From positions 1-51,717 of IMG/VR virus record IMGVR_UViG_3300049846_001789: DNA of 51,717 nucleotides. The stretch is one strand, 5' to 3'. Under the pieces are notes generated by a model. It ran no database searches, was not told the DNA's origin, and saw only the letters and a program-made list of their open reading frames with translations. Shown here piece after piece: positions 24,668-50,000 of this stretch. A program made the translations under genes and the position numbers. Positions within the stretch are counted from its first letter, which is position 1, and each line of letters begins with the position of its first letter. This DNA is from a virus.

Positions 24668-25330
24668 CTAGGTCGGTGTGTCGATAGCGGCTCGGTCGCC
24701 ATAGCTGTTGAGCCCGCGAATGGCCAGCCGTCCGTGTTGAATTGGATCGTAGTGGGGAGTATACGGCGGCGTATCTTTTTGAACCAGCGTACGCGCCTTA
24801 TTTTGAAGCCAGGTTTGTAGGGGTGATCCAACTAGGCCCAAACGAGATGTAAACGGCGCGGCCATGATGCCTGTAACCGCGCTGGCCACATCTCCTTTCC
24901 GAATGTTGGGATCTTCCGTGGTCGCTGCGTGGTACAAATCCTGAACCGTTGGGGCGAGCGACAACGCTTGGAGCGCCCATTGACCTTTAGTCTCTGGTGT
25001 TTGCCAGTAAAATGATTTGACGTAGTCGGCCAATCCCTTGGGGATGCTCCCCCCGTGGCGTCGACGATAGCGCTTGAATTGGGCGTAGGCGTTTACGGGG
25101 CTACCAAATACCATGTCACGCCCGAATTCTCCCACCCATCGAGCGCCAAGCCCGAGCGTACCTAGGACGCCAGGATTTTTACGTACAGGCGCTTTGAATG
25201 TGAAGAGGCGCTTCGCGGCGCCTGGCAAATTCCAGTCAGCCTTCTTTTCTACGGCGGACGGTCTAAGCCCGTAAAAGGCTTCCGTATGTGCGGCTGCCGC
25301 TTCTTTCACGTCGTGAAACCGGTATTGCAT
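24668..25330 (-). CDS. Unidentified virion-region protein
   Basis: A 220-residue basic protein (QYRFHDVKEAAAAHTEAFYGL...). The middle has an aromatic and Arg-rich stretch (NAYAQFKRYRRRHGG), with short hydrophobic segments nearby but no firm transmembrane helix. Its ATG overlaps the stop of the beta-prime C-terminal gene by one base (TGATG), so it is co-translated with an RNA polymerase subunit. A perfect 15-bp palindrome (25304-25318) is formed by its fifth to ninth codons. It could be an RNAP-associated or virion protein. No family recognised. Confidence 0.65.
   Translation of the reverse strand: MQYRFHDVKEAAAAHTEAFYGLRPSAVEKKADWNLPGAAKRLFTFKAPVRKNPGVLGTLGLGARWVGEFGRDMVFGSPVNAYAQFKRYRRRHGGSIPKGLADYVKSFYWQTPETKGQWALQALSLAPTVQDLYHAATTEDPNIRKGDVASAVTGIMAAPFTSRLGLVGSPLQTWLQNKARTLVQKDTPPYTPHYDPIQHGRLAIRGLNSYGDRAAIDTPT
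25305..25317. promoter_or_regulatory. Dispersed palindrome, exact (centre T), full 15-mer
   Basis: Perfect TTTCACGTCGTGAAA at 25304-25318, in codons 5-9 (F-H-D-V-K) of the 220-residue gene, just after the end of the beta-prime C-terminal gene. Confidence 0.9.
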
Positions 25331-27135
25331 CAGTACGTCCCGGAAGGCCCATTCCGCAGTTCAGCGCCATAAGCGTAGGCGGGGACTGGATGCGTGCTGT
25401 GAATATCGCTCTCTTCGCCGAAGTGAGCGGCTTGTTGGATCGAGCCTTTGAGGTAGCGGTGTGACAGTCGCGCCATCCAGTCCGGTTCTAGAAGTGGATT
25501 CATCGTGAAGGGGCGCATGATGAATTCAACCTGAGGCAGCCGCTTGTTCACGAGCACCTCTTTGATGCCGTGACCCTTTAGCTCACGCGCCAGATTAGGC
25601 GTGATCGGGCTACCTACGGTGTGATGCAGCACTTCAGCCCCGAGACGTAGTCCTACCGCGTGATCTACGGGTACGCGTTCGACCTCTTTAGCGTATGCGT
25701 CGCGAAAGGCGTTGTAGTTAACCACGTCGCCCTTCAAGAACTCGGGGTGGTGCGGGTCCGCTTCCAAGAATTTGACGTGGTTAAGCTCACTCTTCGCCAG
25801 CAATTCTACGTGGCGTCGATCTAGATTGATGCCTTCGTCTTTGTAGACCTTATGCAATGCGTCCACAAAATACGCACGTCCCGCGCCGATGCCCTTTGCC
25901 GCGACCACTTTGGCGGGGTGCGGGACGCCATCAGTCAGGGCGTCTCCAGCTTCGACATGTTGGCCGACGTAGGCTTTGAGTGTCAGCTCTGGATTGGCGT
26001 ACAGCTTTTGGTCTCCTAGGTACAGGTAGTGGCCGCCTTGTGGAGCTTTTTCAATCTTGGTTACCACGCCGTCACGAGGCGCGAGTACGGCCTCGTGCTT
26101 GAATGCCTGTGGAATCTCCAAGAGTTGGCGGACGCCTTTGAGCCCTTGTGGTTCTAGCTTCTTCGCTTTGATCGTCAGAACTGCGTGTTTAGACGATAGA
26201 GCCATTTGAGTTAGCGGCTCTGCCATTGCTTGAGCGGCACGAGTACCGACGGCGGTGCCGATCTGGTGGATCTGTCCCTTTTCGTTATGGCCCTGACAGT
26301 GTTGACAAACACCGTGAGGCGCCGCGCAGGTCATCGGGGATCGCACGAGCACGTCGGTGATGTTTTTAGACTTGAGCTCTTGCACCAGCCGAGGCGTGAT
26401 CAAGGTGTTTCGCGCCAACCCGCGATCAGCTTGGCTAAACCGATCAAGAATGTGCCCGTCATCTACACGCATACGCACACCTGCTGAGGTGTTGCAGTCT
26501 GACACTGTGATGACCTTGCCGATCATGTTGTTGACCAAGACCTTGGCCATTTCGCCAGGCTCGGAGACCGACACGACGGTTGCGACGTTGTTAGCGCGCA
26601 CTTCAGGTACTGTCGTCCAATATTCTGCGGCGGTTAGGCCTTCAGAATATGAGCGGCGAATGGGAATCTTTTCGATGCCCTTTTTTGGATGCACGGCTAC
26701 GAGCGGCGAGCCGACGATCTTCATGAGCTGAGCTGGATTTCCGCGCGCACCACTGAGCGCCATGTGAGTCATCGACCCAGGGTGCGTCTTGGTGTAATCG
26801 AGCAGCTTGTTCTGTGTTTCAATGACAAGCCGCTCTCGCTCTTTAGCATCGTGCGTCTTTTCAATCTTGTCCGCCGCAGGTCGCAAGATCGTATCGCGCG
26901 CCTTGTAATCAGGCTCGATGTCGTCCAGGCCTACGCTCACGCCTTCCAGCGTTGCGATCTCATCGCCCCTGCGTTTGAGCGCGGAAATCGTTTTGACGTA
27001 AAGCTCCGGGTTGTTTTTTGCCAGATCAACAACGTGGTCATGCAGCCCCTTGTTTGTGATTGGGCCGCTGATCTTGTGCGAGTCCGGAAGGACGTCGTTG
27101 ATCAGGAAATGACCTACTGAAATTGGAGCTGGCAT
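25330..27135 (-). CDS. RNA polymerase beta-prime subunit, C-terminal part
   Basis: A 601-residue protein equivalent to the C-terminal half of bacterial beta-prime. Visible landmarks: SGARGNPAQL (128-137), matching the segment before the bridge helix; the bridge helix SEGLTAAEYW (about 163-190); the second zinc site with Cys214 and C270-x6-C277-x2-C280; and the trigger-loop region GTAVGTRAAQAMAEPLTQ with His317 at the place of the catalytic trigger-loop His. The adjacent Met-Arg pair of bacterial enzymes is replaced by Leu-Ser. It must assemble with the beta/beta-prime fusion encoded at 28649-33157. Start ATG 27135 has no strong Shine-Dalgarno. It lies within the structural operon, so packaging in the virion is possible. 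No alpha or omega gene is in the window. Confidence 0.9.
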   Translation of the reverse strand: MPAPISVGHFLINDVLPDSHKISGPITNKGLHDHVVDLAKNNPELYVKTISALKRRGDEIATLEGVSVGLDDIEPDYKARDTILRPAADKIEKTHDAKERERLVIETQNKLLDYTKTHPGSMTHMALSGARGNPAQLMKIVGSPLVAVHPKKGIEKIPIRRSYSEGLTAAEYWTTVPEVRANNVATVVSVSEPGEMAKVLVNNMIGKVITVSDCNTSAGVRMRVDDGHILDRFSQADRGLARNTLITPRLVQELKSKNITDVLVRSPMTCAAPHGVCQHCQGHNEKGQIHQIGTAVGTRAAQAMAEPLTQMALSSKHAVLTIKAKKLEPQGLKGVRQLLEIPQAFKHEAVLAPRDGVVTKIEKAPQGGHYLYLGDQKLYANPELTLKAYVGQHVEAGDALTDGVPHPAKVVAAKGIGAGRAYFVDALHKVYKDEGINLDRRHVELLAKSELNHVKFLEADPHHPEFLKGDVVNYNAFRDAYAKEVERVPVDHAVGLRLGAEVLHHTVGSPITPNLARELKGHGIKEVLVNKRLPQVEFIMRPFTMNPLLEPDWMARLSHRYLKGSIQQAAHFGEESDIHSTHPVPAYAYGAELRNGPSGTY

Positions 27136-27152: not shown

Positions 27153-27482
27153 TTAGCGCTGCTGCATCATCGGCTGCTGGGGCTGGGCCGCTTGCTGTCC
27201 TGCCCCAAAGCCGCGCCCTGCCATGTAGCCGGCACCGCCAACCGCTGCCGCAGTCGCTCCCAGTCGGCCGAGTGCTTTCGTTCCTCCGGCGTCATGGAAG
27301 CCTTGCGCGACGTTCTTGGCGCCTTGCATAAGGCCCTGACCAGCGCCGCGCGCGCCCCAACCAGATTGTAGGGCCTTGCCCACGGTCCCCATGGCTTTGG
27401 TGGCGGCTCCAATGAACGCTACCTTGTAATGCTCGGCCACTGCCCGCTGAGCCATTGCTTCCACTTCCGCACGCTTGTACAT
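27153..27482 (-). CDS. Small Gly/Ala-rich probable virion protein
   Basis: A 109-residue protein. The N-terminus (YKRAEVEAMAQRAVAEHYKVAF) is helical with K-x-A elements, the middle is a glycine-zipper-like series (GAGQGLMQGAKNVAQG, GRLGATAAAVGGAGYMAGRG), and the end is Gln/Pro/Met-rich. It may insert into or cross membranes. The TGATG overlap with the upstream gene indicates co-translation. It lies between the two RNA polymerase genes. Confidence 0.6.
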   Translation of the reverse strand: MYKRAEVEAMAQRAVAEHYKVAFIGAATKAMGTVGKALQSGWGARGAGQGLMQGAKNVAQGFHDAGGTKALGRLGATAAAVGGAGYMAGRGFGAGQQAAQPQQPMMQQR

Positions 27483-28111
27483 CAGACTCCTCCGTAGCTT
27501 TCGTTTGCGATTGCGCCGATGCGGTCAGCGGTCCATCCGGCACCGAGACCTGTCTTTGGACTCCAGACTGGCTTTTCGTCACGCATTTTTGTGGGCGGAC
27601 CCGCGCGTCGCTTTGTGTAGCCGAAATCGTCGCCTTTTACGATGCGTGTGAATTCGTCTACGTCGCTTTTTCCGCCATCAAGCAGGGCGTATTTGGCGAG
27701 AACAGCGTGGATGGCGGCCTCTTTGACATCATCGCGTCGCAAAAGGCGTTTTCCGCCGTGATAGAGGGCTGCGCTTCCAGCCACGGGAATGGTCGCCAAG
27801 CCCGCAATGTGCGCGAGGATATTAGCCCTCGTTCCTGGGTCTACATGACGATCCAGCAACGAGGCCCCCCTCTTTTTGGGATAGGCCAGTAGTTGACTAG
27901 GCTCTTTGAGGAAGCGCTGCGCCCCTTGGAGGTAGTGATTGAGAATGCTGCCTACGTCGACTGTGGTGGATCCAATCTTCTGCTCACCCGCATGTCGGGC
28001 CGCATCTTCGAATTTGCCACGCAGGTCCTTCAGACCTGGCTGCGGGTCGACAAACCAACCGCGTCGCTTCTTCTTCAAGGCGGTTTCATGTGCGCGCAGT
28101 AGAGGCGTCAT
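27482..28111 (-). CDS. Unidentified basic protein between RNAP genes
   Basis: A 209-residue protein from ATG 28111 (TPLLRAHETALKKKRRGWF), which overlaps the upstream TGA as ATGA; the longer frame to 28159 would overlap the neighbour more and is rejected. Basic N-terminus, a central hydrophobic stretch (ILAHIAGLATIPVAGSAALYHGG) that could be a membrane helix, then a polar C-terminus. Probably a virion protein. No family recognised. Confidence 0.6.
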   Translation of the reverse strand: MTPLLRAHETALKKKRRGWFVDPQPGLKDLRGKFEDAARHAGEQKIGSTTVDVGSILNHYLQGAQRFLKEPSQLLAYPKKRGASLLDRHVDPGTRANILAHIAGLATIPVAGSAALYHGGKRLLRRDDVKEAAIHAVLAKYALLDGGKSDVDEFTRIVKGDDFGYTKRRAGPPTKMRDEKPVWSPKTGLGAGWTADRIGAIANESYGGV

Positions 28112-28668
28112 TCGCAGCTCCGCAGGTAGCGCGTTAGATCGTCGGCGTGCCCTTGGCACTCAGTGGCGTAGTTTTGAGCCATACCGTTGAGCGCCACATC
28201 GTCGTCCGTTTGGCGAAACAGCTCGGACCAAAGCTCCATGGATTCCTGCTCCATGGACCGAAGCGCGCGCATCATGGCCGCCGCATCGTTCATTGGGACG
28301 CTCGGAATCGGAAGCGGCTCACAAGGCGCATCGCCTCCCATGGCCGTGATCTTTTTGTTGATCTGGTATAGCTGCGCGCGCTCTTCGTCCAAGTGCTCTT
28401 GGAAGTGCGCGAAGATGCCATCTCGAAAAAAAGCACGAAGCTGATCCCCGTAGTGAATGTACGCGAGGATCAACTGGTACTTCTTGCTGGATAGCCGCTT
28501 TAGCAGTTCACAGCAGGGCGAGCCGGATGCCTCATGTTCGAAGATGCTTCGCAGCTCGTCACCTAGAGGGCCTTCTGTTTTCACGTCGTGAATCTCGGGC
28601 ATGCCAGGCCGTTTGACGGTAGTGGCATGCAGGGCCCCCATTAGGGCGTTAGCTAGAGCTTCCTTCAT
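28108..28668 (-). CDS. Ferritin-like four-helix protein (candidate)
   Basis: A 186-residue protein. After a 50-residue leader, residues about 55-182 form four amphipathic helices with a ferritin/bacterioferritin rhythm: QLILAYIHYGDQL (helix 1), AHFQEHLDEERAQLYQINKK (helix 2), MMRALRSMEQESMELWSELF (helix 3), NYATECQGHADDLTRYL (helix 4). A loop with GGDAPCEPLPIP joins helices 2 and 3, as in ferritin-like proteins. Of the usual iron ligands, acidic residues are present in helices 2-4 and a His in helix 4, but the E-x-x-H spacing is altered and the helix 1 Glu is not clear, so iron binding is doubtful. Starts inside the end of the RNAP fusion gene (20-base overlap) with GGAGAA upstream. Confidence 0.55.
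   Translation of the reverse strand: MKEALANALMGALHATTVKRPGMPEIHDVKTEGPLGDELRSIFEHEASGSPCCELLKRLSSKKYQLILAYIHYGDQLRAFFRDGIFAHFQEHLDEERAQLYQINKKITAMGGDAPCEPLPIPSVPMNDAAAMMRALRSMEQESMELWSELFRQTDDDVALNGMAQNYATECQGHADDLTRYLRSCE
28580..28592. promoter_or_regulatory. Dispersed palindrome, exact (centre T)
   Basis: Inside the ferritin-like gene; minus-strand codons give I-H-D-V-K. Context TTTCACGTCGTGAAT (28579-28593). Confidence 0.85.
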
Positions 28669-31600
28669 GGCCGATCACATTCTCCGCTGGGCAGAAGAAT
28701 AGCGCATCTTCCGAGCTCAACGAAGACGCTTCCGGCGCCTCGTCTTGAAAGTCCGCCCGCTTTTCGTTGGCGATAGTAATTGTATCGGTGAGCTTGAGCT
28801 TACCGGAGCGCCAAGCGGCCAAGGCTTCATCCCGCGTCTGAAAATGATGAGTGGCAGCGCCCGTGTTCGCAGCTTTCGACGCCAACGTCACTCCAATGAT
28901 TGATTCGTGCTGCGGGAACGCCAGGATCTTGTTCCGTGTTTGGTCGGACATCAGCAGGTTCGACAACGTCATTCGTTTGGCGTCTTCGACGGCCCCCGGC
29001 TGGATGGGCCCGTGGATCTGCAAGGTGTCTCCGTCGAAGTCCAAGTTCATTCCCTTTTCGATAAAGGGGTTTACGCGCACAGTTTTGCCGGCAACCGGGA
29101 TAGCGTTCGCGGCGATGATGGACCAACGGTGCAGCGTCGGAGCTCGGTTGATCAGCACAGGCCGCGCCTTTGTCTCTGCCAGCATCGCCTCGCGTGCCAC
29201 AGGTGCCTTCTTGTCCACAAGTTCACGGGCCTGAAGCGCCCCATAGCCTTGACGCACTAGTCGCGCGACGATCAGCTTGTCGAACATCTGCCAGAGCATT
29301 TGCTCAGGGATGCCGACCTCGTCCATGTTGAGGTTGACGTCCGGAACCGCCGTGCCGCGTCCAGAGACGTCCTGGGTGCGGCGCATGAGCTTGCGCTGGA
29401 AGAAGCCGCCCTTGGGCGTACCGACGCCAGCGATGTTTTGAAGGAAGCCCTTCACTTCTTGCTTCTTTAGTTTTTCGTCGTCCGGATCATTGACGCCAAA
29501 TACCGCACCCACGGCGTTGAACACCATTTGGCGATGCTTGCCCAAGTCGGACTCCAGCGCCGTGTTCTTGTGCACATCATTGGTGTCGATGAGATGCCCG
29601 TATAGCTTGTTTGCGTCCGAGATCATCAGCTGAGATGGATCGCGCTTCTCAGGCAGGATGGGCCGAAACACAGGCGGAATGACCGGCACCTTCGACATGA
29701 TGTACGCGTCAGCCGGGGAGAGCTTCTCCTTTTTCAGCGCTTCCAGGTACTTGATTTGCTTGATGGTGTCGTCCAGTTCGGGCCCAGACGCCCTGGCCAT
29801 TTTCGCACGCAGATCTACGAGCTTTCGATCCAGGTCAATCTTGGCCAGCTCCTGCTTGAACCAGGCGCCGCCGTGCGATTGCAGCTTGGCGTCAAAGTCC
29901 TTCTGCGACAGCCCTAGCAGTCGACGCACTGGGTCGATAAAAACCGGATGGGGGATGGGCTCGTGCAATTCAATGTGAGCGAATAGCGTGCCCTGCGGTC
30001 CACCAGTCTTGATGGGATCAAAGAGGCCGCCTGACTCTGGGCGCAAATTCTTAGCGATCAACGTCTTCTTGTTGTCGATAGCGCCACGACTACGTTCAAG
30101 CACGCCCTTGTCAGTCATGGGCAGCAGCTTGAATTTCGACCCACGCTTGTCGACCTTGATGCCCGAGCCTTCGAGCATCGCCGTGAACTTGTTGAAAGCG
30201 AACGTCGGCTTTGGCGTAGGTAGCGGAGCACCGAGCTGAATCGCTCGCCAGAACTCATCGTTCTTTTGGCTCTTCACCGTGGCAGCTTCTTGCAGGATGT
30301 TGCGCGCGCCGTGAGCTACGAGCGCATCGTATTCCATCTTGCCGAGGCCCTTGGCGCTCTCATCGCCGCCTGTCTTCAGAGGCTGCTCGTTGACGTCATA
30401 GGGTCCGACACCGTGGCCGGCGAAGTTAGTGTCTGTGGACTTGAACAGCTTGTAGATGAACTGCCGTCCGACCAACACACCCTTGTTGTCGGGCCCAGTG
30501 ATCTTTCGCTTGGTTACTGGATCGTAGACAGTTTCCTTGTCCTTGATGTTGTGCGCCTTTAGCAGCTCCTTGGCCCACGTAACCGCGTTCTTGTCCTCGC
30601 CGTTGTCGTACAGGATGGGCTTGCCCGTCTTCTCAACCACCTTGCCGACAGCGGTTTCGATGATCTGCGCCGGATTGATGCGCGACACCACGCCAGCGCT
30701 GGTGAGGATCAGGTCGAGCGGCCGGCCCTTTTCGTCTTGGATCATTTCATGATCGGGGACGATCTTTGCCACTACGCCTTTGTTACCAAATCGGCCCGCG
30801 AGCTTGTCGCCCACGTTCATCTGCTCGTGGGTTTTCACGAGGATGGCGATCTGATTAGCGGCACGAAATACCTCGACGACTTCACCAGGGGTCCCGTGCT
30901 CCCACTGAAGCACTACTTCGCGGTACGGCTTCGTAAGCGACTTCGCGATACGGCCGAGCATCAAATCCGCGCCTTGGATTTGCGTCTTCGTCAGGCCGAC
31001 GATCAAGGGGTCTTTGGGGTCGACGCGCGACCCTGCCTTGATGACTCCAGCGTCATCGAGTTTGGCGTACTGCTGCGCGGAGTACTTGTTCCCGTAGTAG
31101 GCCTTGTGCTTTTCGCGAGATAGCTCGATGCCGGAGTTGAGCGGGTAGACCTCGCGATACATGTGCTCGCTGGTGAGCTTCTTCGCGCAGCCCTCACTAA
31201 TGACGACCGCGTCATTGGAGTTCAATCCGTGGTACGGCATGTAGCCTACGAGCAGGTTCTTCCCGAGCGCCATTACACCATTGCGCGTGAAGTTCGAGTC
31301 CGCTAGACGCTGACCTGCTTCCACTTTATCGCCGGGCTTCACCTGAATGTCGTGATGCAGGTAGGTTTTGGACGGAAAGGGGAAGTGATTCTCGTAGGGA
31401 ACCTTCACCAGCTTCGCATCGGACGCGGCGGCCGTCTTCTCGGCTTGCTTCTCCTTGTGCGGCTCGATCCAGATGTAGCCCCCTTCGATCTTCTTGACCT
31501 TACCGCTCACTGGCGCCACGGGCACGGTCATATGCCCGTAAATCGCCTCGAAGGACACGTCGCCTGGAAGGTGGCTCTTCACTTGAACGTACGGGGCTTC

Positions 31601-33157
31601 ACGCTCCAGTAGGGGGAGGGCTTGGGTGCCCATCTTGCTTCCCATGATGGCCCGGTTCCCTTGGATGTTGTGAATCATCGGGATCAGGCTTGTGGCGGGA
31701 GAGTATTGATGGGAGACGTGCGTGAGCTGGTGCGTTACCCGGGAACCAGGGACGGTCTGCACTTCCCCATTCACAAAGGCTTTGACGGCGTTGCTCTTGA
31801 GGTCTTGATTCGGGAAGGCCACGACGTAGCGCATCAAGTCGCCGGCCTTTAGAAAGACGTCCTTCCCGCTTTTCACGTCGTGAACCGGCGTGTAGAGGTT
31901 CCCCTTGTCATCCCGATGCGCCATGATGGTCGCCCGAATGTCGACCCCTGCGTGGCCGCTTTCTGGGGTGCGGATCGGGTCCAACGACCCAAAGTGCGTC
32001 GAGTGCGTCATGCGCGCGCTCAGCGGGATCGCGCGATCACTCGCGATACCGCCTTCACCGAGCGACGTGACTTTTACGGCGTGATCAAGCAGCTCGATGG
32101 GATTGATGCCACTGGGTACAGCCGTGAGCGTGGACGTAGTGACGAACTTCCGCACGGAGTCCGAGAAAGGAGCTGGCCGCAGCGCCTCACGAATGGAGGT
32201 CTTTCCAGTCAAGGCCATCTTTGCCTTGGGGGCCCAGGCGCGAGCGGTCAGGCGAATACGCTCTGCTAGGAAGTCATCCACCGAGTGGAACGTCTTGAAC
32301 GCCAGTGAATCCGTATCATCCACGGGGGTCTGGCCCTTGTGGACTGCAAGGATCTTCTTTGCGGCATCGAGCAAGGCCGTAGGTGTGACCTTGTCGTGGT
32401 CCTTCCCCAACGTGTGAGCCGTTACGTCACGATCCAACGTGGTCATGTCGTAACGCTTTTGCACCACCTGTGCTTTTGCTGTGTGCTCCAGCTTTGGATT
32501 AACCAACGCGGGATGCTCCAGCTTGGTGTATAGCTTGTTGATGGCGCTCTCAATCTGATGCCCGTGCTCAGCTTGATTGGCCTTAGCGACGCCTTCCCCA
32601 AGGTGATGCGCGATTGCGTCGTGTGTAACGCCAAGGCCACGTAGCACTGGGTACAGGGGGATGTTGCTAGCCCCGTACTGTAGGTGAAACGTACCCTTCT
32701 TTTCGTTGAACCCGAGGTCGAAGTTCTTACCTCGCCCCAAGTTGAACGTCGTACGAAGTTCACCGTTTTCCGCCCGTTCGGTGTACACACCGGGCTTACG
32801 CCGAAGCTGATTGGCGAACTGGTACTCATTGCCGTCAGCGATGACGGTGTGTCGGTCCGTCAGATACGGGATGTGGACGAGCGTGTAGTCCTTGGCCGTA
32901 TCGATGACCTTACCGTCAGCGCCTTTCAGGACAAGCGTGCCCTTTACAGCCGTTTGAAGCGAGGAGCCGCTTAGCAGCGCCCGCTTTTGCTCTTCTGAGG
33001 AGTAGTCCCGTCCGTGTACGCGTACATCGGTAACCTCAAGCGTTCGACCCTTGAGATCCAATGGGAAGACAGCATGCAGCGCCCCCGTAACTTTTTCGTG
33101 AATCTTTCCTCGAAGCGTCTCCGCATCGGTCAGCACGGAGGTTAGCGGCTGCGTCAT
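28649..33157 (-). CDS. RNA polymerase beta subunit fused to N-terminal beta-prime
   Basis: A 1502-residue protein joining two RNAP subunits. Residues 1 to about 960 are a full beta subunit: PYLTDRHTVIADGNEYQFANQL (97-118), THSTHFGSLDPIRTPESG (384-401), GDKLAGRFGNKGVVAKI (783-799), GRPLDLILTSAGVVSRINPAQ (811-831) and GLGKMEYDALVAHGARNILQ (937-956). Residues from about 1000 are beta-prime: a start resembling the N-terminal lobe, HIELHEPIPH (1061-1070), VPVIPPVFRPILP (1157-1169), NRAPTLHRW (1337-1345) and the catalytic NLDFDGD with Asp1373, 1375 and 1377. The N-terminal beta-prime zinc ribbon seems lost between GGLFDP and HIEL. It ends soon after QTRNKILAF, before the bridge helix. The frame is intact, so this is a true fusion. 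An inverted repeat adjoins the start and no Shine-Dalgarno is visible. Confidence 0.95.
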   Translation of the reverse strand: MTQPLTSVLTDAETLRGKIHEKVTGALHAVFPLDLKGRTLEVTDVRVHGRDYSSEEQKRALLSGSSLQTAVKGTLVLKGADGKVIDTAKDYTLVHIPYLTDRHTVIADGNEYQFANQLRRKPGVYTERAENGELRTTFNLGRGKNFDLGFNEKKGTFHLQYGASNIPLYPVLRGLGVTHDAIAHHLGEGVAKANQAEHGHQIESAINKLYTKLEHPALVNPKLEHTAKAQVVQKRYDMTTLDRDVTAHTLGKDHDKVTPTALLDAAKKILAVHKGQTPVDDTDSLAFKTFHSVDDFLAERIRLTARAWAPKAKMALTGKTSIREALRPAPFSDSVRKFVTTSTLTAVPSGINPIELLDHAVKVTSLGEGGIASDRAIPLSARMTHSTHFGSLDPIRTPESGHAGVDIRATIMAHRDDKGNLYTPVHDVKSGKDVFLKAGDLMRYVVAFPNQDLKSNAVKAFVNGEVQTVPGSRVTHQLTHVSHQYSPATSLIPMIHNIQGNRAIMGSKMGTQALPLLEREAPYVQVKSHLPGDVSFEAIYGHMTVPVAPVSGKVKKIEGGYIWIEPHKEKQAEKTAAASDAKLVKVPYENHFPFPSKTYLHHDIQVKPGDKVEAGQRLADSNFTRNGVMALGKNLLVGYMPYHGLNSNDAVVISEGCAKKLTSEHMYREVYPLNSGIELSREKHKAYYGNKYSAQQYAKLDDAGVIKAGSRVDPKDPLIVGLTKTQIQGADLMLGRIAKSLTKPYREVVLQWEHGTPGEVVEVFRAANQIAILVKTHEQMNVGDKLAGRFGNKGVVAKIVPDHEMIQDEKGRPLDLILTSAGVVSRINPAQIIETAVGKVVEKTGKPILYDNGEDKNAVTWAKELLKAHNIKDKETVYDPVTKRKITGPDNKGVLVGRQFIYKLFKSTDTNFAGHGVGPYDVNEQPLKTGGDESAKGLGKMEYDALVAHGARNILQEAATVKSQKNDEFWRAIQLGAPLPTPKPTFAFNKFTAMLEGSGIKVDKRGSKFKLLPMTDKGVLERSRGAIDNKKTLIAKNLRPESGGLFDPIKTGGPQGTLFAHIELHEPIPHPVFIDPVRRLLGLSQKDFDAKLQSHGGAWFKQELAKIDLDRKLVDLRAKMARASGPELDDTIKQIKYLEALKKEKLSPADAYIMSKVPVIPPVFRPILPEKRDPSQLMISDANKLYGHLIDTNDVHKNTALESDLGKHRQMVFNAVGAVFGVNDPDDEKLKKQEVKGFLQNIAGVGTPKGGFFQRKLMRRTQDVSGRGTAVPDVNLNMDEVGIPEQMLWQMFDKLIVARLVRQGYGALQARELVDKKAPVAREAMLAETKARPVLINRAPTLHRWSIIAANAIPVAGKTVRVNPFIEKGMNLDFDGDTLQIHGPIQPGAVEDAKRMTLSNLLMSDQTRNKILAFPQHESIIGVTLASKAANTGAATHHFQTRDEALAAWRSGKLKLTDTITIANEKRADFQDEAPEASSLSSEDALFFCPAENVIGHEGSSS
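31872..31884. promoter_or_regulatory. Dispersed palindrome, exact (centre T)
   Basis: Inside the RNAP fusion gene; codons for V-H-D-V-K around residues 425-429 of the beta part. Context TTTCACGTCGTGAAC (31871-31885). Confidence 0.85.
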
Positions 33158-33931: not shown

Positions 33932-35650
33932 TCATCCGCCTTGCGACTGGGCCTTGGCGGCCTGCGTCTGGTCTTGTTGCATTTGCTCTAGACGTTCGCG
34001 CACAACCGATGCCATGACAAGGTCTTCGCTCTTGAGCGCGTCCATTCGCGACCGCCTCGAACCCGCGTCCAGTCCTGCAAGTTCTTGCGCAATCTGATCC
34101 GCCTGCGCAACGATCGCTTGTTGATCGTACTGCGCGCCGCCTTGTTGAGTTTGAGCCTCATTGAGCGCGCGTTGCGAGAGAGAGTTCTGCATTTTCTTCT
34201 GGGCAGCCTCAAGCTGCATTTGAGCCTTGAGTTCGGCGAGAGCGTCTTCGCCCTTCTGCTTGCGTTCATGCTCCCAGTCGATACCCAAGATCTCGCCCAT
34301 CTTCGTGTCGCTGAGCTTTCCGCCCTGCCACAGCTGGAAGTACAGCTGCTTGTTCTCGACGTCATCGATGAGCTTGAACTCAGCCAGGCGTGTAGGGATC
34401 GACGCCCATCCCAGGAACTTCGAGCACTTCTGCTCAATCCACTGGATGAGCCCGTTCAAATCTTCAATGTGCGTTTGTAGTTGGTTCTCCAACATTCGCA
34501 ACGTCACTTCACCGCGCGCTTGTCCGAGGCCGCCCGTGAGGAATTCCATAGGCACGCCCATGGACAACACGATGTTCTTCTCGGCTTCTTGTAGCTCACC
34601 GATGGTGAGCATCGCGCGCCCATCACCGCCTACGTTCTGCACTCCGATAGGCACCGGGGAAAACTGCATGCGTAGCGGATCGCGCCGGAACAGCTTGTAG
34701 TTTCGCTCTAGCTCTTGGCGCCACTGGTCCAGGTTCAGCTGCATGACGGGGTCGCCGTTGCCGCTGGCCGATTGCGGGTGGATCACGCGGAACGGAGTGA
34801 TGTGCTCCAGGGCGATAGCTTCGTTGGCTCTACGTAGAATGGCCGCGAAGAGAAAAAGCTTGATCGCGCTGGTCAACGGAGGGAAGCCCCATTGGGACTC
34901 TACGCCTGCTGGGCCGGGCACCTTGAGGTGAAAGAGCTGGCCTTCAGCGAACCGGAAGGTCTTCTTGGCCTTCATCGCCTTCAGCATCTCCATGGGCATG
35001 GTCCCCACCAGATGCTTGTTTCCCTCTTTCACCTGTTGCACGAGGCTTCGAGGGATCGTGTAGTAGTAAACGCTCTCTCCGGTGACAGGGTTGTGGTCGA
35101 TGTCGATCAGCTTTGGATCCCACCGAATCAAGTTGATCTTCGACGGATCCTTGAGCTTTTCGTCTTCAACGCGCGCCGTCACTTCCATAGCGCACTGCCG
35201 GCACTTCAGCCGGAATTCAGTATGCGCTTCCACGAACTTATAGTTGGCGACCTTGACGTCTTCCTTCGTGGCGCACTTCGGGCAGATCAGCCACCGTTTG
35301 ATTGGCTCGTACACCGAGACGAAGGCGTTGCCGTAGATGTTCTTGTCGAACGAGATCATAGACAGGAAGCCCTTCAGCTTGAGCTTCTTCTCCAGCAGGT
35401 CTTGGTGCCTGTCCTTCTCGTTCGGTGACGTCGTGTCGTACACGAACGTCGTAATCGGGTACTCGCCGAACTTCCGTACGACCCCGTAGATGTGTGCTGA
35501 GTTGTACGCGAGGTACTCAGACCACTTGAACAGGTCTTTAAGCTTGCGCGGTACAAACCCCGTCAGATAGTCAAAGACAGGGTTTGGATGGCTCGCACCA
35601 TTGAGCGCCAGTGGGTCGGTAGAAGTCCCGGGGTTGATCGAATTCATCAT
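33932..35650 (-). CDS. Portal protein with zinc-ribbon insertion
   Basis: A 572-residue protein matching phage portal organisation: an N-terminal wing, the stem/clip core (FSPVPIGVQNVGGDGRAML, then LSMGVPMEFLTGG), the region LGQARGEVTLRMLENQL, and a Gln-rich helical C-terminal crown. The portal is the ring at the capsid vertex through which DNA enters and leaves. Residues about 122-155 carry an inserted CPKC...CRQC zinc-ribbon-like element, seen in some myovirus portals. The first gene of the minus arm, it begins at ATG 35650, only 20 bases from the divergent helicase start. No clear ribosome site on this side; Met 2 at 35647 is an equal choice. Confidence 0.85.
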   Translation of the reverse strand: MMNSINPGTSTDPLALNGASHPNPVFDYLTGFVPRKLKDLFKWSEYLAYNSAHIYGVVRKFGEYPITTFVYDTTSPNEKDRHQDLLEKKLKLKGFLSMISFDKNIYGNAFVSVYEPIKRWLICPKCATKEDVKVANYKFVEAHTEFRLKCRQCAMEVTARVEDEKLKDPSKINLIRWDPKLIDIDHNPVTGESVYYYTIPRSLVQQVKEGNKHLVGTMPMEMLKAMKAKKTFRFAEGQLFHLKVPGPAGVESQWGFPPLTSAIKLFLFAAILRRANEAIALEHITPFRVIHPQSASGNGDPVMQLNLDQWRQELERNYKLFRRDPLRMQFSPVPIGVQNVGGDGRAMLTIGELQEAEKNIVLSMGVPMEFLTGGLGQARGEVTLRMLENQLQTHIEDLNGLIQWIEQKCSKFLGWASIPTRLAEFKLIDDVENKQLYFQLWQGGKLSDTKMGEILGIDWEHERKQKGEDALAELKAQMQLEAAQKKMQNSLSQRALNEAQTQQGGAQYDQQAIVAQADQIAQELAGLDAGSRRSRMDALKSEDLVMASVVRERLEQMQQDQTQAAKAQSQGG

Positions 35651-35670: not shown

Positions 35671-37620
35671 GTGGTTATCGTTGGGACGCACCTGAATCTT
35701 ACGCCTGCTTTCAAAATTACGGTATCCAGCGTTTCGCCTGAACCTTGGCGACGAGTTACAGGCTCGATTCAAAGCGGTCAAGATTGGCTGTTTCCGGCGT
35801 ACTATCCGTTTGGCCTCTCGGCGTTCAAGGATCTTCGAACGCTGGCGCCGGACGCGAAATGGGACCCATCTACGCAGCCTCTCTTGGCTTCGTTGAAGCA
35901 GGCCCACGTATTGTGGACGCAGGCCAAAACCGCCTTCGAGTCCGGCGCTACGATGCCGGATGTAGGGCTTGAATTTCCAAAAGGCTTTGCGCCCTATCGC
36001 CATCAGATGATGGGGATCGTTCGGGCCCATACGTGGTGGCGCACGTTCTTTTTGTGGGAGATGGGTACAGGCAAGACCCGCACGTTGATTGACGCCTACC
36101 GGCTTTCACGTCGTGAAGACCCGTCACTCAAGCGCATGCTAGTTTTGGCTCCTCCGGTGGTTCTGCCGACATGGCGCAATGAGGTAGCTCGGTGCAGTCA
36201 GGGGGAGCTGCGTGCCATTATCTGGGACGGTACAGACGAGACGTTCCAAGATGCGCGCACAGCTGACGTAGTCATTATCTCTTACGCCCGCGCTCGGATG
36301 GAGTTTGATCCGCGTTACATCGCGGCTAACAGGCTGTTGCAGCTTGATTATCAGACCATCGTGGCTGACGAGTCACACGCGATCGGTAATTACGAGGCTG
36401 ACCAGGCGGCGGCAGCGCTCGCGCTATCCGCCAAGGCGTCGCGCAGATATCTGGCGTCAGGCACCGCTGGGGATCATCCAGGCAAGCTGTACCCGCAGTT
36501 TCGATTTTTGGCTCCGGCGTTGCTACCGCTGTCTTGGACACAATTTCAAGACCGCTACTTCGTCTTCTCGCGGTTCAAAAAGCATCAAGTGTTCGGCTAC
36601 AAGAATTTGGATGATCTGAATTCGCGAGTAGAGCAGGTAGCGACGCGAATGAAGAAGAAGGACTGCCTGGATCTTCCACCGGTGTCCTTCGTAGACGTCC
36701 CGTTTGAGCTCACGTCAGCCCAAGTTGACGAATACGACGCGTGCATCGCGCGCCTTCGGGATCGAGATCTCTATCAAAAGGTGTTGGCTGGGAAAGGCGT
36801 CTCCGTAGCGCACGGCGGAGCGCTGGTGAACAAGCTTCTACAAATCGTATCGGGCTTCATTTTGGAAGGGGCCGATCCGCTCATCTGCGACGGCTGTACG
36901 CACATGCCTAACTGCGTGGCTCAGCGCATTCAGCCGTACACCCGTAATTGTCAGCTGGTGCAGATTCGACCCAAGATAGAAGTGCGGCGCTTGCCTGGGG
37001 CGAAGAAGGGCACGCTCTCTGACTTGCTCGCCAACATTCTCAACGACGACGAGACCAATAAGGTGATCGTCTGGGGCTCGTACTTGGAGGAGCTAAACGA
37101 CATTGAGGATGTCGTAAAAGCGTTGGGCGTTGGCTATGTACGCGTCGATGGATCGACCACGTCGAAGATTGGCGAGATCAGTGCCAAGTTTCAATCTGAT
37201 CCAGATTGCCGCGTTTACATTGGTCAGGTTACGTCCGGTGTTGGTGTTACGCTGACTGCGGCCAACTACATGGTCTACTACGCGTTGACGTGGAACCTGA
37301 CGTCATACAAGCAGTCATTGGAGCGCAACAATCGCCCGGGCCAGACGCGGAAGATGGTGGTCTATCGGCTACTGTCGTCCAAGCCTGGGGCGCTGGATCA
37401 ATTTCTCGCACGCGTCCTCGAATTCAAGGATCAGGTCGCATACACGATGTTGGAGCGGGTGGCGTGCTCTTCGTGCGACCGTATGGCGAGCTGTGCCAAG
37501 GCCGAGATCCGCCCGTTTCAGAGCGGGTGTAAATACCTTGCGCAGATCGACAAACCTACTGCAACAACCGATTATCTGAACGAGAGGATTCCCAATGAAG
37601 GTAACGCTGAAGAACGATGA
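35671..37620 (+). CDS. SNF2-like DNA helicase / translocase with two Cys modules
   Basis: A 649-residue superfamily 2 ATPase, first gene of the plus arm. GTG start at 35671 follows AGGAGGT. Motifs: Walker A WEMGTGKTR (about 129-137), a LVLAPPVVLPTW motif Ia, DESH Walker B (about 232-236), ASGTAG motif III, and RNNRPGQTRK motif VI (about 551-560), in the SNF2 style (R-x-x-R-x-GQ). Unusually, two copies of the same Cys array, C-x2-C-x5-C-x11-C, occur: one inserted between the two RecA-like lobes (from about 406) and one near the C-terminus (from about 599). Each likely binds a metal. It probably acts in early DNA metabolism or transcription. A palindrome lies at 36105-36117. Confidence 0.85.
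   Translation: MVIVGTHLNLTPAFKITVSSVSPEPWRRVTGSIQSGQDWLFPAYYPFGLSAFKDLRTLAPDAKWDPSTQPLLASLKQAHVLWTQAKTAFESGATMPDVGLEFPKGFAPYRHQMMGIVRAHTWWRTFFLWEMGTGKTRTLIDAYRLSRREDPSLKRMLVLAPPVVLPTWRNEVARCSQGELRAIIWDGTDETFQDARTADVVIISYARARMEFDPRYIAANRLLQLDYQTIVADESHAIGNYEADQAAAALALSAKASRRYLASGTAGDHPGKLYPQFRFLAPALLPLSWTQFQDRYFVFSRFKKHQVFGYKNLDDLNSRVEQVATRMKKKDCLDLPPVSFVDVPFELTSAQVDEYDACIARLRDRDLYQKVLAGKGVSVAHGGALVNKLLQIVSGFILEGADPLICDGCTHMPNCVAQRIQPYTRNCQLVQIRPKIEVRRLPGAKKGTLSDLLANILNDDETNKVIVWGSYLEELNDIEDVVKALGVGYVRVDGSTTSKIGEISAKFQSDPDCRVYIGQVTSGVGVTLTAANYMVYYALTWNLTSYKQSLERNNRPGQTRKMVVYRLLSSKPGALDQFLARVLEFKDQVAYTMLERVACSSCDRMASCAKAEIRPFQSGCKYLAQIDKPTATTDYLNERIPNEGNAEER
36105..36117. promoter_or_regulatory. 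Dispersed palindrome, exact (centre T)
   Basis: Inside the helicase gene, soon after Walker A. Read in the L-S-R-R-E frame, unlike most intragenic copies on the minus arm. Confidence 0.85.
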
Positions 37621-40485: not shown

Positions 40486-41304
40486 CTAAAGCACGTCATT
40501 CAGGGTGGTCACACCCTTTTCGTGCAATAGCGTCTTGAGCTTCAGCATCGCTTCGGACGCCATACGGCTAATCTGATTAGCGTTGAACAGCGAACCGTCC
40601 AGCTCGTAAAAGAACTGGACGAGCTCGTCTGCTTCCATTTCGGTCCCCCTGAGGCCGAAGTAGTAGATGAGCACTAGCCGTTCGCAGCGAGTTAGGTCGG
40701 CTTGTTCCATGTACTCGAACAGGTTGCACTCACTGTGCTGTGCAGCTTGTTCGGTGTCATCATCGGCGGGCGCATCGACATCATCCAACGTGGTGGTAGT
40801 TGGTTCGCGCATCGCCGTAGACGCTTGTGGCGCATAACTACCGAGCTGGTTTTCTTGCTTGCGCTGCTTGTTCATAGCCTTTCGTGTGTGGCTGGGAACG
40901 TGGACGATGCCCAACTTGTGCAGATGCTCCTGCATGTGGACGTCGATCCAGCTAGCGGCGTAGGTCAAAAATCGCACCTTGTATGAGAGCTCGAAGCGCT
41001 CGACGCCGCGCATCAATCCAATGTTGCCCTCGCTGATCAAGTCTTTGAGCAGCTGAGGGTCATTTGTTTTTCGATGCGCTTGCTTGATCACGAAACGCAC
41101 GTACCCGCAGGCGATCTCTTGGCCGATTCGCAAACGGTCGCGTAGCCCTTCTTCGCGATCTTTTGCTGATCGGCCAAGCTGTTCGCGTGTCTGAGCCTTC
41201 TTGTACTCCGTGAAAAGGCGTACCTCTTCTTCCTTGGTAGGCAGTTTTTGCTTGCCCACTTCGTTGAAATACAGGGCGGCCGTCGGGTCGGTGGTCGAGC
41301 TCAT
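40486..41304 (-). CDS. Sigma70-family factor
   Basis: A 272-residue protein from ATG 41304 (SSTTDPTAALYFNEVGKQKLP); the frame continues to 41754 but that part overlaps the divergent gene and is rejected. Region 1.2-like DPTAALYFNEVG...TKEEEVRLF is followed by region 2 (RFVIKQAH, DLISEGNIGLMRGVERFE, RFLTYAASWIDVHMQ) carrying the -10 recognition helix, then a short acidic linker and region 4 (about 210-265, LVLIYYFGL...NANQISRMASEAMLKLKTLL). Region 3 is reduced. It faces the opposite way to its neighbours and converges with parB, whose stop is one base from its own. A TATACT box lies about 30 bases upstream. It may serve the phage-encoded polymerase or redirect the host enzyme. Confidence 0.85.
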   Translation of the reverse strand: MSSTTDPTAALYFNEVGKQKLPTKEEEVRLFTEYKKAQTREQLGRSAKDREEGLRDRLRIGQEIACGYVRFVIKQAHRKTNDPQLLKDLISEGNIGLMRGVERFELSYKVRFLTYAASWIDVHMQEHLHKLGIVHVPSHTRKAMNKQRKQENQLGSYAPQASTAMREPTTTTLDDVDAPADDDTEQAAQHSECNLFEYMEQADLTRCERLVLIYYFGLRGTEMEADELVQFFYELDGSLFNANQISRMASEAMLKLKTLLHEKGVTTLNDVL

Positions 41305-41334
41305 TGCTTTGAGTTTACAGCCGGAAAGGCCCGC

Positions 41335-41342
41335 AGTATAAC
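41335..41342. promoter_or_regulatory. Divergent -10-like element between sigma and ssDNA-binding-like genes
   Basis: The 70-base gap holds AGTATAAC. On the minus strand it reads TATACT, 30 bases from the sigma ATG; on the plus strand it reads TATAAC, 32 bases before the ATG at 41375. Both genes may be driven from here. Confidence 0.35.
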
Positions 41343-41374
41343 CATCAGCGCACTGATGAAGTGCAGAGGACCCT

Positions 41375-42532
41375 ATGGGAAAAAACAACAAGACCAGCAA
41401 TTCTACCAGTGAAGTTTCACTCCCCAGCAGCAGCGATGCTCCCGTTCTCGACGTGATCGTGGAAGCCCCTGAAGTGACTGAGATTCCGGCCGCCACCACG
41501 GAAGCTGGAATCGTCAAGGCCGAGCGCGTTGAGCTCTCGGTGGTCAACAATGAGGCGTGGATGGAGCAGATCCCGAAGGCGATCCGCGCCCAGCTGACGT
41601 CCATGACAGCCCCCGAAGAGGGGGAGCTGGCGGCGATGGTCGAAGGCCTCCCGTCCGAGTTCCAGGCGAACTTCAACGACCTCGTGGAGCGCATGAACCC
41701 GGTCCGCGAAGGCGTTGTGTCTGCCAGGGCAGAGTTTCGGGTGCCCGAGCTCAAGCTCTATCACGGCGTGGGCGATGACGCCGCGAGGCCGCAGAGCGCT
41801 CCGGTAGGCTCGATCTACACCAGCGATGGGTCCGTCCTGGCTGCGTGGGATAAGACGCAGGCCAAGATGCTGAAGATCGGGCAGACGTTCGTGGGTACGG
41901 TCGTGGCCGTCCAGGAGACCCGGTCCTGGTGGCGGCCGCGTGACAAGAACTTTCCTCTTCCGCCCGACGTCGATCCGAACTCCAAGGCGCCCATCTGCCG
42001 CTCTCTCGATCGAGCGCGCGGCACGCGCTATGGCGCCTGCGCGGCATGCCCGCATCGGCCGTACGTGAAGGGATCGTATGAGCCCAACGGCTGCCAGAAC
42101 GATGTGCGGCTGTACATCGTCCTGCGGGATTTCACGGGCATGTACGCCATGACCGTCAAGGGCGGCAGCGTCAAGAAGGCGGTCGTTCCGATCCTGCGCA
42201 CCAAGGGCGTGCCGTGGAGCGTCTGGTTCGACTTCGGGCTGGCCGAGGAACGCAACGAGCAGGGCCGTTGGTTCTCGATGACCGCGCAGGCGCACGTCGA
42301 CGACGACCATCCTCAAGGCATTCCCACCACGCCAGAAGAGCGTAACGTCCTGAGGGCTCTGGCGCGTACGATTCTCCACGAGTCGTACAAGCCCGAGTTG
42401 GAGAAGATCTACCGTCAGCAGGAGACCTCTACGCCTCAGTCTGAAGAGATGGCGGACCTGGACGCCGTCCGCGCCTCCGCAGAAGCAGCGGCGGCCGCCG
42501 CCGCGACTGATTACAGCAAGAACAATCTGTAA
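41375..42532 (+). CDS. Zinc-binding, candidate single-stranded DNA-binding protein
   Basis: A 385-residue protein. The acidic, Ser/Thr-rich N-terminus is probably flexible. The middle has a Cys array, C-(about 12)-C-x2-C followed by GCQND, and beta strands (RLYIVLRDF, MYAMTVKGGSVKKAVVPI), resembling zinc-containing ssDNA-binding proteins of some phages. The Ala-rich C-terminal tail ends acidic, DYSKNNL. GC3-rich codons like those of parB and capsid suggest high abundance, which suits an SSB. AGAGGAC precedes ATG 41375 and a clear terminator follows. The SSB call rests on general look and position in the replication cluster; other DNA-binding roles are possible. Confidence 0.45.
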   Translation: MGKNNKTSNSTSEVSLPSSSDAPVLDVIVEAPEVTEIPAATTEAGIVKAERVELSVVNNEAWMEQIPKAIRAQLTSMTAPEEGELAAMVEGLPSEFQANFNDLVERMNPVREGVVSARAEFRVPELKLYHGVGDDAARPQSAPVGSIYTSDGSVLAAWDKTQAKMLKIGQTFVGTVVAVQETRSWWRPRDKNFPLPPDVDPNSKAPICRSLDRARGTRYGACAACPHRPYVKGSYEPNGCQNDVRLYIVLRDFTGMYAMTVKGGSVKKAVVPILRTKGVPWSVWFDFGLAEERNEQGRWFSMTAQAHVDDDHPQGIPTTPEERNVLRALARTILHESYKPELEKIYRQQETSTPQSEEMADLDAVRASAEAAAAAAATDYSKNNL

Positions 42533-47000: not shown

Positions 47001-50000
47001 ATGGCAACGATTACACTGACGGAGCCCCCAGCTCCGTTCAATTGTACTTTGTGCTCGCTGCCGCAATGGCAAGCTAAGGCTGGAGCCAGCTGCAACGACT
47101 GCCCGGCGTTCAAGGACACGCATTACCACCCTTACGATGAGGGCCCCGAAGGCGCTAATCTGATCGTGGTGGGTGACGTGCCCGCTCCGCCGCCTAGGCT
47201 GGCTCTGGTGGGCGGAACGGCGGTTCAAACCCCGCTCAGGGCGCACAACACGTTTGACGACACGGCGGGGCGCGTTGTCAAAACCGCAGTCCAACGGATT
47301 CTTTCACGGCGTGAATTCGCGCACGTTCAGGCGTATTACACCTACGCCGTTAAGTGCGCGGTTGAAAACCCTAACAAGAAGACGATCGTAGCGTGCGCGA
47401 CCAATCTGCGCGCCACTATTCATCGGATCTCAAAGCGCAGGCAAGAAGCTGGGCTGTTGGGGCCGTTGGTGGTCTTGGCGTGTGGCGTTCGGTCTTTGAA
47501 GGCGCTGGGTGTTTCTGCGACTAGTGAGGATGACGCGCTTAATCGCATCTTTGAGGATGTGGACGTGGCTGGTGTCAAAGTCACGGTAGTGTTTACGCGC
47601 TCGCTCACGGCGCAAGGGACCCAGGACGGCAAATTCAACACGTTGTTGTTTGACGTCGAGCGCGCCGCCAGGGTGGCGACGTCTACGCTGGTGAACGTAA
47701 AGCCGCGCGCAGAGATCGAAAAGGATTACGTCTATCCGAAGAGCTTGGACGAAGTCCGTAGCTTGGTGGATCACGTGATCAATTACGCCGAGGGTAACGT
47801 CGCGGCCAAGGACTGGAAGATCTCGTTCGACACCGAGACGAACACGCTGCACCCCAACTGGGATGGGACCAAGCTGCTGTCGGTCTCCTTTGCGTGGAGC
47901 GTGGGTAAGGCCGCGTCCGTCGCGCTGTGGCACCCCGGGAATGACATGTACGATCCTGCGGCGGCCTTCGAGGAGATCAAGCGCCTGCTCGGTAGTCGTA
48001 AGCCCGTCATCTGGTTCAACGGGAAGTACGACTATAAGGTCTTTTGGAAGCTTGGCTGGCCGCAGACAGACGTGGGTAATGTGTATTGGGATGGGCTGCT
48101 CGCCGAGCATGTGTTGGAGGAGGACAAGAAGAAGTTCTACTCCCTCAAGATGCTCACGAAGCAGTTCATTCCAGAGCTCGCGGGCTACGAAGACAAGTTG
48201 CAGGACATGTTGGAGGAGGACAATGAGAATACCGATGTAGAAACCCCTGTAGAAGTGGAGCAGGAGAACAAGGTTCTGAAGCTGCCCACCGCAGTAGCAA
48301 ACGCCTACAAGTTCGCTATTGAGGAGGGCGTCATCAAGAGCCCCAATTTCCAAGTGAAGACCTTGGAGAAGGCAATCGCAGCTACGTTGGGCAAAGACCC
48401 CGAGCTGGCGGATGCGTTGAAGATCTTGATCGCTGCAAAAAACGCCGGCGAGTTTCGAGCTACGCCTGAGAAGGCAAAGACGAAGAAGCCGGATACTGGA
48501 GGATTCGAGAAGATCCCACTCGATGAGCTCCTGTTCTATGGTTGCGTGGACGCCGATGCCACGCGTCGCATCGCCGTCATGCAAGTGCGACGGATGAGCG
48601 AAGAGGACGCTCGGGTTGAAAAAGCCCGAGCCGAAGTCGAGCTGATGCAAAAGCATTCGCGCGACCCACGTGACAAGCAATTTCCCGTTGACCGCCTTTG
48701 CAAGACGCCTAGGGCGCTGTTCGCTCTCGTGCAGAATGACTATCTGCCGCGTCAGAGGGAGCTGGCAAAGATCGAGTACAACGGCATGAAGGTGGACTTG
48801 AACTACCTCCAATGGGGTACTGAGTCCCTCAGCCAAACGATCGACCATACTCGCAAGCAGATCTACGAGCTTGCGGGCGGTGATGATTTCAAGTTGGGGT
48901 CATCGAAGCGCTTGGGTCAGCTGTTTTTCGGAGATGGGTATACGCACCCAGACCCGGAGCACGCTGAATCCCTAGCTAAGACCTACCCCGATTTGGTCAC
49001 GTATCGTAACGGCAAGATCAGCTACAAGCCGCAAGCTTACACAGCAAAGGGCGCCATTCAGACCAATGACTCGGTCTTGAAGGGGTTGGTGACCAAGTAC
49101 AAGTGCCCGCTGGCGAATCTGATCCTGGCGCACAAGAAGGCGGATAAAGGCAAAAACACCTTCTTCGCCAACATTGGGGCGCTCGCCACGTACTTCGGGG
49201 ATCAGAAGCTGCACGCAGGATACGGCTTGACCAGCACGTCTACTGGACGGCTCTCATCCGCTGTACGCGTAGGCGACGCGCGATTTAATGCACAGAACAT
49301 CCCGAAAGGGCTGATCGGTGCGATGAAGGATCTGCACGGCAAGCTGATTCTAAATGATGAGGGCTTGCCTGTATTCGAGGGCGTCAACTGCAAGCGGTTG
49401 TTCATTCCAGACGACCCCTCGTACGCGTTTGGTAACGCTGACGCCAAGGGCGCTGAGGTCAGCATCTACGCCGCGTATTCCAGGGACCCAGCCTTGATCG
49501 CGGCATTGAAGGACGGCCTCGACGCTCACTGCTACTTCGCCTCTGAGTGCCTCAACCCGACCCTGGTGGCTGCGGGTTTGACGGGCGAAGAGCGGCGCAT
49601 CGCCCTCGCAAAGGCCGGAATCGACGACGAGCACAGCTGGTCGTACGACGACTTTTACAAGGGCAAGGACGGCCTGCTCGCTGACAAGGCCTACGGTAAG
49701 CGGCTCAAGTCTCTACGTGACAACATCAAGCGCCTCGTCTTCGGGATGCTGTACGGCGCAGGTATCAAAAAGATCGCTGAGATTGCTGGCATCTCCTTGG
49801 AGTTTGCTAAGCAAATTCAGGCGCTGTTGTTCACGAAGTTCCCAACGATCCGTACGTTCATGGAACGAACGAAGTGGGAGCTGCGTACGTTCGGGTTGGT
49901 GGAGGCTTTTAATGGTCGGCGCCGGCGTTTTCTTATCGGCAAGGGCGCGCCTAGTGACCTGCGGGCACAGGCGGAGCGACGTGCCATCAACTTCAAGGTG

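Follow-up and report, generated by a model that had tools for sequence, protein, structure and literature searches.

A two-chain bacterial-type RNA polymerase with a fused beta/beta-prime border in a large group of tailed phages

The window, that is the whole stretch of DNA analysed here, is a virus record of 51,717 bases and represents only a fragment of its genome. By their sequences, two genes on its minus strand encode one bacterial-type two-barrel RNA polymerase (RNAP) in two chains, 1502 aa and 601 aa long. The features of the locus are:

28649 to 33157, minus strand: fused RNAP chain, beta plus N-terminal beta-prime, 1502 aa (frame, Pfam, phmmer)
30152 to 33157, minus strand: beta part, residues 1-1002, with the border at about 1002 (Rpb2 domains 2, 3, 6 and 7; family profile b covers residues 4-1000)
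30779 to 30805, minus strand: catalytic lysines of the beta barrel (GDK785...GNK793), invariant in a 31-sequence alignment
30119 to 30160, minus strand: subunit joint, a predicted beta-hairpin (IKVDKR-GS-KFKLLP), residues 1000-1013 (AlphaFold2, relatives)
28649 to 30151, minus strand: N-terminal part of beta-prime, residues 1003-1502, including a non-conserved additional tail of ~40 residues
29027 to 29047, minus strand: NLDFDGD with catalytic Asp 1373, 1375 and 1377 of the beta-prime barrel (invariant Asp columns, 31-sequence alignment)
27153 to 28668, minus strand: three genes between the RNAP genes (28108-28668, ferritin-like; 27482-28159; 27153-27482)
25330 to 27135, minus strand: beta-prime C-terminal part, 601 aa (Rpb1 domain 5, Rpb1_5; PDB and Foldseek beta-prime matches)
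26524 to 26631, minus strand: bridge helix, predicted as a single long helix over residues 169-204 (AlphaFold2; aligns with bacterial beta-prime)
26167 to 26220, minus strand: trigger-loop region with invariant Gln310 and His317 (alignment)
33932 to 35650, minus strand: portal-like gene, a conserved neighbour, upstream on the same strand
35671 to 37620, plus strand: SNF2-type helicase, a divergent neighbour
40486 to 41754, minus strand: sigma-70-like factor with region 1.2 and region 2; the true start is probably internal

The fused gene is an unbroken ATG frame of 1502 codons (33157-28649, minus strand). An earlier reading of this DNA, made from the sequence alone, had described one intact frame of this length with both beta and beta-prime motifs, and this is confirmed, with the frame on the minus strand: TDRHT, GNKGV, GLGKMEYDAL and NLDFDGD are all found in the chain. 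The profile search which that reading proposed matches both families in one chain. In Pfam, Rpb2 domains 2, 3, 6 and 7 are located at residues 120-965 and Rpb1 domains 1 and 2 at residues 1129-1397. Using phmmer against PDB, bacterial beta is matched over residues 50-1002 (best E 4e-74, ~1e-74) and bacterial beta-prime over residues ~1096-1480 of the same chain (E ~1e-36). A chance similarity to the two subunits is excluded by these matches, and since beta domains are followed by beta-prime domains in a single chain, the fusion does cross the subunit border, as had been claimed.

The lysines of the beta barrel and the DxDGD triad of the beta-prime barrel, hallmarks of bacterial-type two-barrel RNAPs, are present and invariant in 31 relatives. 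A search for a second RNAP copy returned only one Rpb2_6 match each in the window and in the phages Arash and D181.

The remainder of beta-prime is found in the 601-aa gene (27135-25330), in agreement with the earlier claim that beta-prime in the fused chain stops before the bridge helix. Rpb1 domain 5 is detected here by Pfam (E 9e-18), the PDB matches correspond to the C-terminal half of bacterial beta-prime, and bacterial beta-prime chains rank first when the model of the chain is searched with Foldseek. Three further hallmarks of bacterial-type RNAPs, the bridge helix, the trigger loop and the second zinc site, are all present in this chain; the His of the trigger loop is the same in all 21 relatives compared, and the zinc-2 pattern is found in most relatives. 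As the catalytic lysines and aspartates, the bridge helix and the trigger loop are all retained, the two chains are expected to form an active two-barrel enzyme.

The site of the cut can be located by alignment with bacteria and with relatives that carry the whole of beta and beta-prime in one piece. The end of the fused chain follows the segment FQTRDEALAAWRSGKLKLTDTITI, and the second chain begins at ISVGHFLINDVLP, matching bacterial TTVGR.... In the one-piece relatives, segments of the FQTRDEALAAWRSGKLKLTDTITI and ISVGHFLINDVLP types are separated by a few residues, exactly at the cut of the window, and no conserved position is lost there. Cyanobacteria and jumbo phages, too, have their beta-prime split in the region between the barrel and the bridge helix (PMC7598289), and the cut of the window falls in this same linker.

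To study the joint between the subunits, AlphaFold2 models were made of residues 621-1502 of the fused chain and of the 601-aa chain, predicted apart; this prediction, which had also been proposed earlier, gives a hairpin at the joint and a long bridge helix. In the model the joint runs from the final strand of beta to the opening strand of beta-prime (block pLDDT 86-95). Because the hairpin is predicted to be ordered and two-stranded, the joint looks like a structural element rather than a floppy linker. The last beta segment, GSGIKV, leads through a short turn into KFKLLPMTDKGVLERSRGAIDNKK...GLFDPIKTGG, and the bacterial counterpart is the start of beta-prime, ending ...GLFCERIFGP. Directly after GLFDPIKTGG follows TLFAHIELHEPI, where bacteria instead have GLFC..FGP-[CxCx..CxxC]-MGHIELASP; past the missing zinc ribbon, TLFAHIELHEPIPHPV aligns where bacteria have MGHIELAAPVSHIW. 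The N-terminal zinc ribbon of beta-prime, suspected earlier to be lost, is indeed gone between GLFDPIKTGG and TLFAHIELHEPI. None of 143 scored fused phage proteins contains the ribbon (CxC...CxxC), and the pattern is seen in 12 of 15 separate-gene proteins. The same joint is found in one- and two-piece relatives.

How common is this layout? In a tblastn search of 50,697 phage records there are full-length matches in four isolates, Arash, D69, D148 and D181. Salmonella phage Arash has the same split, with gp206 (1525 aa) and gp216 (606 aa), and so does Vibrio phage D69, with a fused chain of 1527 aa and a separate one of 609 aa. A homing-endonuclease gene interrupts the fused gene of Vibrio phage D181, and the tblastn match suggests the same break in D148; in D181 (L010:8980-14494) two annotated RNAP pieces are left, by an intron or a split. 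Some matches recorded as Staphylococcus, Enterococcus, Listeria and Acinetobacter phages were rejected, being apparently bacterial contigs with ordinary separate subunits.

Altogether there are 70 two-piece loci, the window included (~65 IMG/VR contigs), and 85 one-piece beta-beta-prime loci (~80 contigs), each of the latter with one complete chain of ~2,000-2,200 residues. These counts come from two IMG/VR scans and profile assignment, with a few duplicates between the scans; retrieval was by fused queries, and unfused close relatives may be under-sampled. For the one-piece form no isolate was found in the phage collection. When bacterial contigs were searched for the same layout, two phage-like contigs in MAGs were found, together with one bacterial separate-gene pair and otherwise ~1,030-aa single-chain two-barrel proteins. 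Among bacterial assemblies, those of Poribacteria, Armatimonadota, Hydrogenedentota and other MAGs (L173-L177, L179) contain single-chain two-barrel RNAP-like genes, whose proteins of ~1,020-1,135 aa have both barrel cores in one chain.

The sequence-only reading had called the layout unusual. What stands is the anatomy, that is the fusion, the cut and the loss of the zinc ribbon; what does not stand is the idea of a single oddity, as this layout is the norm across a large and little-described group of phages. Many relatives already described with the same layout would, according to that reading, have spoken against it. Relatives are many, yet we found no published description of the fusion in these phages in the open-licence literature, to which the search was confined, so one may exist.

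Some relatives show further peculiarities in the RNAP genes. In the two closest ones, at 78-81% identity (L006:8001-13979 and L005:2850-9104), there is an apparent intein in beta (RTPE|C...GN|S), after the position of residue 399 of the window protein, at the conserved RTPES site. Both also have a pyrophosphatase-like domain (InPase PF18823, E 1.6e-5, slightly under the curated cut-off) inserted in a beta loop near residue 575 of the window protein, at beta residues ~961-1048 in L006 and ~1153-1390 in L005, and in L005 the same loop also holds a P-loop kinase-like domain. A polymerase with its own pyrophosphatase would be notable. Inserts of LAGLIDADG type are found within the fused RNAP of two other loci, in beta (L012:8992-14580) and in the beta-prime part (L020:1069-7068). 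Further, three loci taken as possible split genes (L131, L135 and L143) were rejected as such, as each is one frame broken by TGA. The fused RNAP of a 205-kb phage (L131:4941-11018) contains several in-frame TGA codons, at Trp positions where compared, and that of L135 contains one, apparently at a Trp position, suggesting that TGA is read as Trp in these two phages.

The neighbourhood of the RNAP genes is partly conserved. Upstream of the RNAP genes, and with the same orientation, there is a portal homolog in 66 of 70 two-piece and 59 of 85 one-piece loci. A search of 20 entire one-piece records recovered it in 19; in Arash the portal gene, gp204, has the same position relative to the RNAP genes. 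The portal homolog upstream in both forms indicates that one- and two-piece phages share a structural module. The SNF2-type helicase, upstream on the opposite strand, is found in 52 of 70 two-piece loci, and the surroundings of one-piece loci gave no match to it.

The distance between the two RNAP genes is at least 534 bp in every two-piece locus measured. The ferritin-like gene in the gap of the window (28108-28668; Ferritin PF00210 in Pfam) overlaps the end of the fused gene by ~20 bases. The three intervening genes recur in the gap of only 7 (the ferritin-like gene), 3 and 1 other two-piece loci; as the genes in the gap differ between loci, no single insertion explains the split. Elsewhere, positions 47001-50411 of the window encode a DNA polymerase I, the N-terminus of which gives a weak uracil-DNA-glycosylase-like match.

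In addition, the window carries the sigma-70-like gene (Pfam Sigma70_r2, 3.8e-12; PHROG sigma factor, 6.8e-23). All 16 two-piece records tested have a match to sigma region 2, though one scores under the family cut-off; of the one-piece records, 7 of 19 have it. The bacterial arrangement of separate beta and beta-prime with an alpha subunit of its own is not what these phages have: the two subunits are fused, and the alpha-subunit family is found in 0 of 35 records of relatives, while the same search is positive in 13 of 14 control genomes. In bacteria, the alpha dimer scaffolds beta and beta-prime. As no phage alpha is detectable, we propose that the covalent tether could plausibly substitute in part for alpha in joining beta and beta-prime, which would ease assembly. 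Host alpha could nevertheless be recruited by the phage enzyme.

When does the enzyme act? The RNAP genes are located just downstream of the portal gene, in the structural operon. The virion mass spectrometry that had been suggested as a check is in effect already published for Arash, whose proteins are ~35% identical to those of the window, and both chains are abundant in the particles (PMC10585845): gp206 has 3516 spectra, the highest count and above that of the major capsid protein, gp216 has 1210 and the sigma factor gp10 has 467. The coverage column of this proteome was set aside as apparently unreliable, since two-peptide proteins are listed at 100%, and it is no proof of an uncut chain. 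In the accessible text the chains are labelled beta and beta-prime, and no fusion is described (PMC10585845).

The location in the structural operon and the virion proteome of Arash favour a packaged enzyme: the fused RNAP is probably a late product that enters the virion and carries out early transcription once the next cell is infected. Together with the sigma gene, we infer a polymerase that is sigma-dependent and virion-borne. It is conceivable, if rather doubtful, that the enzyme instead transcribes middle or late genes in the same cell and reaches the particle as carry-over. The Arash authors themselves raise carry-over for abundant enzymes in particles (PMC10585845), and the separate-gene RNAP of YerA41 is expressed early; however, genes placed in the structural operon downstream of the portal, and a fused chain that in Arash tops the major capsid protein in spectrum counts (PMC10585845), fit this poorly.

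The history of the two forms was studied with two trees. FastTree was run on 147 rows, of which 136 were phages left after dereplication and 11 were separate-gene bacterial-type sequences serving as the root; the 58 two-piece phages group as a single clade (support 1.0) that lies inside the one-piece phages. With IQ-TREE on 52 rows, all 18 two-piece phages again form one clade (100), while the one-piece lineages are only softly rooted. By an AU test, a one-piece clade as sister to the two-piece clade is not rejected (p 0.61). This leaves the root within the phage clade weak, and the order of events therefore rests on event counting.

As the joint and the loss of the zinc ribbon are common to one- and two-piece forms, a single fusion appears ancestral to both. 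A fusion followed by a split needs two events, against three if the chain was re-joined, and we consider, with moderate confidence, that the fusion came first and was followed by one split. Beta and beta-prime would then already have been one protein in the ancestral phage enzyme, the last beta strand turning through a tight hairpin into the first beta-prime strand and the adjoining zinc ribbon being lost; a single later cut would have severed the long chain in the linker that leads from the beta-prime barrel to the bridge helix. We consider it unlikely that the two-piece form is ancestral, with beta joined to the N-terminal half of an already split beta-prime and the one-piece form produced by later re-joining. 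The source could perhaps be cyanobacteria-like or jumbo-phage-like, given that the cut lies in the region split there (PMC7598289), and the two clades could be sisters according to the AU test. But the third event would be an exact re-joining that retains every conserved position, from genes that are now at least 534 bp apart in all measured two-piece loci, and FastTree nests the two-piece form inside the one-piece form.

Even less probable is a post-translational cleavage of the fused chain at the joint, resulting in three ordinary chains. Other large myoviruses, such as SPN3US, are reported to process head-packaged proteins (PMC10052503), and a PHROG match marks one gene of the window as protease-like and involved in head maturation, but structure prediction gives the joint as a short and ordered hairpin rather than a disordered linker, and both forms have conserved it. 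An assembly or annotation artefact, thinkable for a metagenomic virus contig, is for practical purposes ruled out, as dozens of contigs and independent isolate genomes show the frames unbroken.

On balance we find it likely that an ancestral single-chain fusion, one later cut, a tether that replaces part of alpha and use as a virion enzyme together explain the locus. Layout, family, motifs, synteny, the clade and the shared joint are observed, and presence in the virion is published for a relative; from these we infer the order of events, the role of the tether and the time of action.

Among known systems, Arash (PMC10585845) shares the two-piece layout, the portal neighbour and the sigma genes, but is only ~35% identical. 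Vibrio phage D69 also has a fused chain and a separate beta-prime C-terminal gene, annotated as hypothetical, as in D148 and D181. The one-piece RNAPs of uncultivated tailed phages have the joint, the zinc-ribbon loss and the portal neighbour of the window, but beta-prime is uncut. The RNAPs of the mReC phages are clearly similar to bacterial beta and beta-prime but distinct from the cellular lineages, and the accessible part of that study describes them as beta and beta-prime subunits and mentions no fusion (PMC7481178). The mReC feature NADxDGD in the COG0086 match is NLDFDGD in the window and NADFDGD in 72 of 85 one-piece relatives; the mReC-type Gp23 capsid (PF07068) is found in 0 of 35 records of relatives and is positive in YerA41, Carin-5 and RHph_Y65. 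Since the filter by which mReC proteins are detected might also admit one-piece proteins, the mReC set and the one-piece fusions may overlap, and unrecognised fusions may exist in the mReC set.

The RNAPs of phiKZ-type jumbo phages (PMC7598289) also have no alpha and a beta-prime split after the catalytic barrel. However, their beta is split in two or three chains, whereas that of the window is whole and fused, and they have two paralogous enzymes without sigma, whereas the group of the window has one enzyme with sigma; the window enzyme is not of phiKZ type. The single-chain RNAPs of crAss-like phages (gp66) and P23-45 have both barrels in one chain and, in some, a virion role (PMC10770324), but are very divergent, while the window enzyme is plainly similar to bacterial RNAP with nearly the full architecture. 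With two chains and clear bacterial similarity, it also falls outside the crAss, YonO and P23-45 class of single chains far from cellular RNAP. In the RpoB-RpoC fusions of Helicobacter and Wolbachia the C-terminus of beta is joined to the N-terminus of beta-prime, as in the window; unlike the window, these are cellular and uncut, the zinc ribbon is kept and alpha is present.

The enzyme is thus a non-standard bacterial-type RNAP, with a fused border, no zinc ribbon and no alpha found, and it is widespread rather than unique. Whether a large lineage of tailed phages carries an alpha-less, sigma-using and virion-packaged RNAP derived from a single-chain ancestor, with the branch of the window later cut at the site used in cyanobacteria and jumbo phages, we regard as evenly balanced. 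The family offers a large natural set of one- and two-chain forms of the universal two-barrel RNAP, similar enough to bacterial enzymes for a comparison part by part. It could be used to test if alpha is needed solely for assembly, how sigma functions without the zinc ribbon of beta-prime, and why unrelated lineages cut beta-prime in the same region. As Arash is an isolate with a common laboratory host, the layout is directly testable.
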